Assembly (NCBI GenBank): GCA_025965975.1
Contig: JAOPVX010000075.1
Coordinates: 1-32,634 of the forward strand
Direction of reading: 5' to 3'
Source: Mycobacterium sp.
GTDB lineage: Bacteria; Actinomycetota; Actinomycetes; Mycobacteriales; Mycobacteriaceae
Length of the DNA stretch: 32,634 bases
Positions 3,727 to 10,388 of the stretch are shown here, in pieces (within the stretch, counting starts at the first letter, position 1; every line of letters starts with the position of its first letter). A program made the position numbers and the translations under genes. The notes beneath the pieces are model-generated. The model did not search any database and was not told the origin of the DNA. It saw only the letters and a program-made list of their open reading frames with translations.

Positions 3727-3778
3727 AGCGAGGACACCGATGAGCGCTTGCGCGAAGAAGCGAGGACACCGATGAGCG
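3727..3778 (+). repeat. Duplicated start cassette with an 11-residue mini-ORF between proA and moxR
   Basis: A 20-bp unit containing GCGAGGACACCGATGAGCG occurs twice, at 3727-3746 and 3759-3778, offset 32 bp. Each copy carries a ribosome site (GAGGA) and an ATG. The first ATG (3740) opens a mini-ORF of 11 codons (MSACAKKRGHR) whose TGA (3773-3775) overlaps the moxR ATG as ATGA. The segment between copies, CTTGCGCGAAGA, is also the core of the 33-bp units at 6822-7019. This looks like a mycobacterial intergenic repeat that preserves translational coupling. Confidence 0.7.
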
Positions 3779-4647: not shown

Positions 4648-6086
4648 TGGCCGTCCGCCGAACCCGCCCGCCGCAGCCGCTGGCCCCGCACGGACTTCCC
4701 GGTCACCTGGTGGAGTTCGTGGAAGCCCTGCGTGGGCAGGGGATTTCGGTCGGCCCATCAGAGACCGTCGACGCAGGTCGAGTGATGGCGGTTCTCGGGC
4801 TTGGTGACCGCGAGGCGCTGCGCGAGGGCTTCGCGTGCGCGGTATTGCGTCGAGCCGACCATCGCGACACCTATGACGCGATGTTCGATCTGTTCTTCCC
4901 TGCGGCACTGGGCGCGAAGACCGTCCAGCTCGACGGCGACGATGAGGACCACGAAGGCCTGCCTCCCGAGGACATCGAGGCACTTCGCGCGCAGTTGGTC
5001 GACATGCTCGCAGGCAACGCCGACCTGGCCAGCCTCGACGAGCGGCTGGCGGCGATGATCGCCCAGATCGTCGAGGCCTACGGCCGCTACCAATCCAGCC
5101 GTGGCCCGTCCTACTCGTCGTATCAGGCGCTCAAGGCGATGAGCCTCGACGACCTCGAGGGCCGGCTGCTGGCAGGCCTGCTCGCGCCCTACGGCGAGGA
5201 GCCAACACCGACGCAGGAACAGATCGCCAAAGCCCTTGCGGCCCAACGCATCGGGCAGTTGCGCAAGATGGTGGAGGCGGAGACCAAGCGCCGCACCGCA
5301 GAGCAGCTGGGCCGCGAGCACGTGCAGATGTACGGCGTCCCGCAGCTTGCGGAGAACGTCGAGTTCCTGCGCGCCTCCGGCGAGCAGCTGCGCCAGATGC
5401 GTCGGGTGGTGGCGCCGCTGGCCCGCACACTGGCGACCCGGCTGGCCGCTCGGCGGCGACGGTCGCGGTCCGGCGAGATCGACCTGCGCAAGACGCTGCG
5501 CAAGTCGATGTCCACCGGCGGCGTGCCGATCGACGTGGTTCTCAAGAAGCCGCATCCGGCGCGCCCGGAACTCGTGGTGCTGTGCGACGTGTCCGGCTCG
5601 GTCGCGGGGTTCAGCCATTTCACGCTGCTTCTGGTGCACGCGCTGCGCCAGCAGTTCTCCCGGGTGCGCGTGTTCGCCTTCATCGACACCACCGACGAGG
5701 TCACCGAGTTGTTCGGACCCGACGCCGACCTGGCCGTCGCCGTGCAGCGCATCACCCGCGAAGCGGGCGTCTACACCCGCGATGGCCACTCCGACTACGG
5801 CAACGCGTTCGTCTCGTTCATCGAGAACTGGCCGAACGTCCTTTCGCCGCGCAGTTCGTTGCTGGTTCTCGGGGACGGGCGCAACAACTACCGCAACCCC
5901 GAAGCGGACCTGCTGGCTCACATGGTCAACGCCAGCAGGCACGCGCACTGGCTCAATCCGGAGCCGAAGCACCTGTGGGGCAGCGGCGACTCGGCGGTGC
6001 CGCGCTATCAAGACGTCATCACCATGCATGAATGCCGGTCGGCCAAGCAGCTGGCCGCGGTGATCGACCAGCTTCTGCCCGCCTGA
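4647..6086 (+). CDS. VWA-domain CoxE-like protein, partner of the MoxR ATPase
   Basis: A 479-residue protein. The N-terminal 300 residues are helical, charged and cytosolic. The C-terminal VWA domain has a MIDAS metal site DVSGS (Asp314, Ser316, Ser318) after VVLC; later it has HSDYGNAF (MIDAS Thr/Asp region) and [11 protein letters not shown]. This is the CoxE/VWA layout and matches M. tuberculosis Rv2425c. There is no signal peptide or membrane helix. The start codon overlaps the MoxR stop (TGATG), so both are made together. Family knowledge suggests it acts with MoxR as a two-part remodelling machine, for instance in metal-centre insertion. The nearest redox enzymes are not adjacent, so the client is unknown. 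Confidence 0.88.
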
Positions 6087-6180: not shown

Positions 6181-6825
6181 GTGACTTCTCGACGGCGCCT
6201 TGGGGTGATGGGTGGGACGTTCGATCCCATCCACAACGGGCACCTTGTCGCGGCCAGCGAGGTAGCCGGCCTGTTCGAGCTCGACGAAGTGGTGTTCGTC
6301 CCGACCGGCCAGCCCTGGCAGAAGCGCCACCGCTACGTCACCGCCGCCGAGGACCGCTACCTGATGACCGTCATCGCCACCGCGTCCAACCCCCGGTTCT
6401 CGGTGAGCCGGGTGGACATCGACCGCGCAGGCCCGACCTACACCAAGGACACGCTGCGCGATCTACGCGCCCTGAATCCCGACTCGGACCTCTACTTCAT
6501 CACCGGCGCCGACGCGTTGGCCTCGATCCTGTCGTGGCAGAACTGGGCGGAGATGTTTTCGATCGCCAAGTTCGTCGGCGTCAGCCGCCCCGGCTACGAG
6601 CTCGACGGCGAGCACATCGCGGCGGCCCTGCGGGAGCTGCCACCCGACGCGCTGACCCTCGTCGAGGTGCCCGCACTGGCGATCTCGTCGACCGATTGCC
6701 GCAAGCGGGCCGAAGAGAACCGGCCGATCTGGTACCTGGTGCCCGACGGCGTCGTGCAATACGTGACCAAGCGCCAGCTCTACGCCGCCCAGCCGGTCGC
6801 GACGAAGGGCGGGAACCGGCGATGA
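6181..6825 (+). CDS. nadD: Nicotinate-nucleotide adenylyltransferase
   Basis: A 214-residue nucleotidyltransferase that adenylates nicotinate mononucleotide to deamido-NAD, the last-but-one step of NAD synthesis. The N-terminal signature [12 protein letters not shown] carries the ATP-binding HNGH (residues 18-21). The C-terminal ISST motif (168-171) followed by Arg is also present, as is the substrate loop [11 protein letters not shown]. Length equals the M. tuberculosis enzyme. GTG 6181 is the only start giving this N-terminus. The stop overlaps the ATG of the first of six 33-bp repeats leading to rsfS, as ATGA. Confidence 0.96.
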
Positions 6826-7019
6826 GGCGCTTGCGCGAAGAGCATCAGGTATGGATGAGCCGCTTGCGCGAAGAGCATCGGGTATGGATGAGCCGCTTGC
6901 GCGAAGAGCATCGGGTATGGATGAGGCGCTTGCGCGAAGAGCATCAGGTATGGATGAGCCGCTTGCGCGAAGAGCATCAGGTATGGATGAGCCGCTTGCG
7001 CGAAGAGCATCAGATATGA
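6822..7019 (+). repeat. Six tandem 33-bp start-codon repeats between nadD and rsfS
   Basis: Six units of exactly 33 bp begin at 6822, 6855, 6888, 6921, 6954 and 6987. The unit reads ATGAGCCGCTTGCGCGAAGA followed by GCATCAGGTATGG. Copies differ at only a few bases: units 1 and 4 have GG for GC at positions 6-7, units 2 and 3 have CATCGGG. Since 33 is a multiple of 3, each frame repeats every 11 codons. One frame is open from the nadD stop and encodes MSRLREEHQVW-like units. A second encodes MDEPLARRASG units and runs in frame into rsfS. The nadD frame stops in every unit. Each unit has purine-rich GAAGAG and two ATGs. Confidence 0.95.
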
Positions 7020-7384
7020 CCGCCTCCGACGAAGCCGTCAAGATGGCTACCGTGGCGGCCAGCGCGGCCGCGGCCAAGCTCGCCGAGGATGTCGTCGTGA
7101 TCGACGTGTCAGGACAGCTCGTGATCACCGACTGTTTCGTCATCGCGTCGGCGTCCAACGAGCGCCAGGTCAACGCGATCGTCGACGAGGTCGAGGAAAA
7201 GATGCGCCTCGCGGGGTACAAGCCGGCGCGGCGCGAAGGCGCCCGCGAGGGTCGATGGACGCTGCTGGACTACGTCGACATCGTCGTGCACATCCAGCAC
7301 CAGGACGAGCGCGACTTCTACGCCCTTGACCGGTTGTGGCGCGACTGCCCCGTCGTGCCGGTGGATCTGGATCCAACGCCATGA
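7016..7384 (+). CDS. rsfS: Ribosome silencing factor RsfS (RsfA/DUF143)
   Basis: A 122-residue RsfS/Iojap protein. It binds ribosomal protein L14 on the 50S subunit and blocks subunit joining when nutrients are short. The fold is recognised by VVVIDVSGQLVITDCFVIAS, the SNERQVNAIVDEVEEKM helix, EGAREGRWTLLDYVDIVVHI and the C-terminal ERDFYALDRLWRDCP. ATG 7016 gives the family N-terminus (MTASDEAVKMA). The frame stays open upstream through the repeats, with in-frame ATGs that could add 11-residue extensions of MDEPLARRASG. The stop overlaps gpgP as ATGA. It corresponds to M. tuberculosis Rv2420c. Confidence 0.93.
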   Translation: MTASDEAVKMATVAASAAAAKLAEDVVVIDVSGQLVITDCFVIASASNERQVNAIVDEVEEKMRLAGYKPARREGAREGRWTLLDYVDIVVHIQHQDERDFYALDRLWRDCPVVPVDLDPTP

Positions 7385-10340: not shown

Positions 10341-10348
10341 CCTCGGGC

Positions 10349-10388
10349 GCCAACACGCCAACACGCCAACACGCCAACACGCCAACAG
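10349..10388. repeat. 8-bp tandem repeat (five GCCAACAC units)
   Basis: GCCAACAC is repeated four times without change and a fifth copy ends in AG. The array fills most of the 53-bp gap between two convergent genes. It is a likely length-variable locus. It marks the left edge of the catabolic island but shows no terminator-like stem. Confidence 0.9.

Follow-up and report, generated by a model that had tools for sequence, protein, structure and literature searches.

The window analysed here is a 32,634-nucleotide stretch of a Mycobacterium sp. assembly (7.44 Mb in 449 contigs). Between nadD and rsfS it carries a tandem array of six 33-bp units, the coordinates of which are given below with those of the flanking genes, the reading frames across the array and a second copy of the same repeat.

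Features of the nadD-rsfS junction and the second repeat copy (positions in the window)
Feature	Position	Strand	Remarks
Second family copy in the window, single 32-bp unit	3739..3770	+	directly before AAA ATPase start codon 3772
nadD, nicotinate-nucleotide adenylyltransferase	6181..6825	+	NF000840, 324 bits; TGA 6823-6825 within ATGA
Shine-Dalgarno-like stretch in nadD 3' end, before ATG 6822	6802..6818	+	predicted duplex -11.5 kcal/mol
Six-unit 33-bp array of the dispersed family	6821..7018	+	unit starts 6821, 6854, 6887, 6920, 6953, 6986
Putative bridge ORF, 65 codons	6822..7019	+	ATGA overlaps at nadD stop and rsfS start
Alternative frame, RsfS plus up to five 11-aa N-terminal repeats	6851..7384	+	weak predicted initiation sites
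rsfS, ribosome silencing factor	7016..7384	+	TIGR00090, 104.7 bits; start position as in relatives

Tandem Repeats Finder reported the array with a period of 33, 6.0 copies, a 96% match and a score of 361. The first-pass annotation had placed the same array one base further on (6822-7019) and had described nearly identical units that connect the stop of nadD with the start of rsfS and leave two frames open. The match score, curated gene models and the sequence bear out this description: the two open frames are those of the bridge ORF and of the alternative frame, the latter encoding five MDE[P/A]LARRAS[G/D] units followed by RsfS, and the nadD frame is closed by a TGA in each of the six units. 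The rsfS start codon itself lies within an ATGA, with the bridge ORF stop at 7017-7019. The GAAGAG motif, earlier taken for a ribosome-like site, does occur in all six units, but it is predicted to pair only weakly with the 16S rRNA end (-2.5 kcal/mol). RNA across the junction folded no better than shuffled sequences (z = 0.60), and between window positions 5800 and 8200 Rfam gave no match with an E-value of 0.1 or below. Four contigs of this assembly (L171, L173, L008 and L192 of G000) end within arrays of the repeat family, and copy numbers are therefore doubtful here, the exact six at nadD-rsfS included.

The array is one member of a dispersed family. Searching the source genome at the DNA level gave 40 scored matches, 39 of them outside the array, and the pattern GATGAGN{0,3}GCTNGCGNGAAG matched the 7.44-Mb assembly 107 times, compared to 0 for a reversed-pattern control. 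Within the genus, 167 of the 248 genomes searched (our own included) carried the core, with 3 control matches in total and a highest copy number of 133 (genome G147). In a family-wide search it was found in 15 of 21 Mycobacterium genomes versus 1 of 230 genomes from 30 other genera, the sole outside hit being one odd single match. Among 42 named genomes, which we picked from the 80 relative nadD-rsfS loci, 29 carried the repeat; the 13 repeat-free genomes and five with 1-2 copies belong to Mycolicibacter and to slow-growing species, among them M. gordonae, M. persicum and M. europaeum. Plasmids and phages gave no match to the repeat at E 1e-5. Core strings and peptides of the family had no match in the open-access papers searched, and no paper on the family was found as judged by titles and abstract openings. 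The family is thus an interspersed repeat of small size (32 or 33 bp), non-palindromic and here found only in Mycobacterium. A role particular to RsfS, as first proposed, was not borne out, with the core at 55 distinct loci among those examined in the same genome.

We examined 57 loci with 95 cores in this genome (55 after removal of two duplicate contig ends; the set omits 7 of the 107 pattern matches). The first 19-20 bases of the unit are near-invariant; the next ~10 differ among loci and are similar within one array. Unit spacing was 32 bp at 50 of 84 sites, 33 bp at 22 and 22 to 47 bp at the remainder, the 84 sites being drawn from the first 150 matches listed, in 12 genomes, of a 60-genome search. 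An apparent avoidance of spacings of 1 mod 3 (0 of 20 arrays in our genome) was dropped, as such spacings occurred at 3 of the 84 sites, and at 3 of the 12 outside 32/33 bp. Four unit sequences folded no better than shuffles on either strand.

Gene calls around the 55 loci, made with our own simple codon-usage gene finder, placed 28 in sense orientation where an upstream gene ends; for 13 of these, the last base of the upstream stop codon is core position 2 or 5. Some copies are antisense or lie within proteins, which speaks against the explanation favoured below. The second copy in the window contains an 11-aa ORF whose stop overlaps the start of the AAA ATPase gene (assigned by Pfam AAA_5); the 21 bases on each side of its centre form a direct repeat. 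At L004, a succinate dehydrogenase-like pair (Pfam) has a similar bridge with its stop on the downstream start, the upstream stop lying two bases before the bridge start without overlap. The family 2 glycosyltransferase of L003 (612-1763, minus strand; Pfam) has four 10-aa N-terminal repeats that come from a 30-bp array near 1504-1620, of which M. moriokaense has one unit. A pyridoxal-phosphate enzyme gene (PALP, Pfam), presumably cysM-like, holds the repeat in frame in 2 of 30 compared loci, our own included. At L002 (1483-1600), three antisense units lie in the N-terminus of a class-V aminotransferase, which we assume to be cysteine-desulfurase-like. A proposed preference of a 23-base core for positions within genes (2 of 14 versus 1 of 41, p = 0.16) was rejected; the strict test misses N-terminal sites.

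In 75 of 80 relatives, nadD and rsfS overlap by 4 nt, with rsfS starts taken from the search match. Allowing 3 mismatches, the repeat was missing from this junction in 108 of 109 relative loci (80 + 29 from two sets, with possible species duplicates). The exception, L156 of genome G182 (another species), has a decayed single copy that lacks the ATG (minus strand, ~1494-1531 of the reverse complement), with 21 of 24 bases matching on visual comparison; NadD reads through it and ends in GTGA, a 4-nt overlap with rsfS. The likelihood that this match arose by chance is small but not nil, since the reversed control gave 6 such matches in 3.17 million bases. Four of the 80 relatives (L063, L067, L070 and L139) carry the repeat on the opposite side of rsfS, at its 3' end, near 6355-6395.

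The nearest genome by alignment, M. moriokaense GAS496 (87.5% over 11.6 kb), has an empty junction (...CCGGCG-ATGACC). Compared to it, the insert in the window lies exactly on the ATGA and leaves an ATGA at either end. About a quarter of the M. moriokaense genome entered the comparison, with 14 alignable family sites, ten of them empty in M. moriokaense and four filled in both species. At the ten empty sites, a native GCGATGA stood exactly at the insertion in three (nadD-rsfS, L203 (+33) and L021 (+32)), a near-miss target in two (the 3739 copy and L186) and no native GATGA in five (L018, L022, L180, L188 and L200); ~10-17% divergence blurs some of these sites, and L180 and L188 are poorly aligned. 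The two species differ in tandem unit number at the three of the four shared sites where it is clear (4 versus 1 in M. moriokaense at L003, 3 versus 1 at L194 and 2 versus 1 at L195), in line with the variable copy number that the first-pass annotation had implied. This variation is between species; the genome collections contain one genome per species.

The Shine-Dalgarno-like stretch before ATG 6822 lies where relatives have the ribosome site of rsfS; its M. moriokaense equivalent has a predicted pairing of -7.4 kcal/mol. At the rsfS start at 7016, predicted pairing is only -2.5 kcal/mol compared to a median of -6.4 in the 80 relatives, 76 of which have a site as strong or stronger. Together with the value of -11.5 before ATG 6822, this suggests that the bridge ORF inherits the signal and that rsfS would depend on reinitiation.

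We think the array is probably a MIRU-like interspersed repeat, tandemly amplified on the nadD-rsfS overlap and passable by termination-reinitiation. The comparison with relatives shows an insertion exactly at the native -4 overlap (GCGATGACC) of the two genes, with ATGA on both sides; a single unit would have gone in first, and tandem amplification would have followed. The putative bridge ORF would take over the former start codon of rsfS together with the ribosome-binding site before it, and end on the displaced rsfS start codon, so that a ribosome finishing nadD could reinitiate on the bridge and again on rsfS. Because 33-bp units hold the bridge ORF in frame at any copy number, we infer that the insertion is near neutral for RsfS. 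Going by the codon layout, ribosomes likely pass through the array, which would be tolerated for this reason. With this, the reading shifts from an rsfS-specific switch to one site of a genus-wide MIRU-like repeat.

As a rule for the whole family, such coupling was not supported. A -4-coupled ORF layout is present at nadD-rsfS, at L021 and at the 3739 copy; the L203 repeat was inserted at an ATGA and is fused in frame. Among 25 sense loci, the chain of ORFs extends to the next gene at 16 in their native state, compared with 18 and 14 when one or two bases were added as a phase control. This indicates that coupling is not above chance across the family, and a family-wide coupling rule was rejected. 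The predicted pairing before the first-core ATG was stronger at 15 junction loci (median -5.7), a group picked after its contexts were known, than at 40 others (-3.95; p = 0.0017). Landing of the repeat on native starts would produce such a difference. The 40 non-junction loci also exceeded random positions (-3.0; p = 0.0016).

The phase control fits a neutral reading, in which the junction bias reflects purging of in-gene insertions, the array is untranslated and RsfS starts independently at 7016. The spacing data agree, with 32 or 33 bp at 72 of the 84 sites and no clear frame bias at other lengths among the matches listed. This reading is harder to reconcile with the exact placement on ATGA and the strong ribosome site retained before the array, and it would leave the rsfS site at 7016 among the weakest, given the 76 of 80 relatives that equal or exceed it. 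We regard it as rather unlikely, though the best of the alternatives.

The first-pass annotation had also proposed that starts at in-frame ATGs within the array could add one to five MDEPLARRASG units to the N-terminus of RsfS and that copy number could alter its form or dose. The part of this that stands is the frame from 6851 to 7384, which is open and in frame with rsfS, and the family does encode N-terminal repeats elsewhere, as in the L003 glycosyltransferase (four versus one in M. moriokaense). However, predicted ribosome sites are weak (-2.5) at all in-frame ATGs, none of these ATGs falls on the stop codon of nadD, the start that relatives use for RsfS is preserved and the unit is not RsfS-specific. 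The most ancestor-like layout, with -4 overlaps at both ends, would keep the RsfS start at 7016. Whole 33-bp units can come and go with both overlaps unchanged, so this layout does not predict that copy number sets the dose. A repeat-extended RsfS and copy-number dosage are unsupported, and we consider this proposal unlikely. Mobilisation as a REP-type element by a RAYT/IS200-like Y1 transposase, which the short, dispersed form and the short preferred target at some sites might recall, is very improbable, because four unit sequences show no fold beyond shuffles on both strands and the repeat does not follow Y1 genes (by hand count, 28 of the 44 genomes with Y1 genes, or 64%, have the repeat, versus 167 of 248, or 67%, overall; G147 has no Y1 gene despite its 133 copies).

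Unit length may define two translational designs. In arrays of 33 (30, 24) bp units, as at nadD-rsfS, the element would be a single in-frame bridge ORF, insensitive to copy number. Units of 32 (29) bp are each their own 10-11-codon ORF with a TGA overlapping the ATG of the next unit, which would make the array a chain of termination-reinitiation steps. If this is true, expression of the gene downstream would be scaled by the efficiency of reinitiation once more for each extra 32-bp unit. That 32-bp arrays act as a mobile attenuator set by copy number is a speculative idea to which we give low odds.

The MIRUs of mycobacteria offer the closest parallel. A 2025 review (PMC12548453) describes MIRUs as apparently mobile elements that insert at start codons, with a MIRU ORF coupled at -4 nt, and credits Supply et al. 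1997 for the start-codon insertion; the repeat at nadD-rsfS looks to work in the same way. It also shares with MIRUs a mycobacterial, dispersed and tandem character and variable copy number (between species here; MIRU copy numbers are given in PMC9392950 and PMC8107269). In contrast, spacing is 32-33 bp here compared to MIRU lengths stated as 40-100 bp (PMC2734929) or 46-101 bp (PMC3914561). Unlike MIRUs, our repeat also lies in frame inside proteins, is common in Mycolicibacterium-type species and is rare or absent in the sampled slow growers. We do not file it as a MIRU, since its units are shorter and the comparison was one of published descriptions; a pattern search for M. tuberculosis-type genomes found none among 8 and none among 396 genomes tried. 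Small repeats in frame in proteins are also known as Rickettsia palindromic elements, which are palindromic and longer than the repeat described here, itself without a notable hairpin. The variable rnc-fpg1 (PMC2734929) and leuA (57-bp unit; PMC2704214) repeats of M. tuberculosis are likewise tandem repeats that lengthen a few-base junction or a protein in one lineage, but they are described at single loci, unlike the dispersed core.

Two thirds of the sampled Mycobacterium genomes contain this repeat, which sits on the start or stop codons of numerous genes and adds in-frame residues to some proteins. Start-codon prediction and protein annotation can be misled by it. Its sites supply natural length-variant alleles for termination-reinitiation studies and could serve as copy-number markers in non-tuberculous species. 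Little change is expected for rsfS itself. A different repeat, five perfect copies of the 8-bp unit CGCCAACA, lies at window positions 10348-10387.
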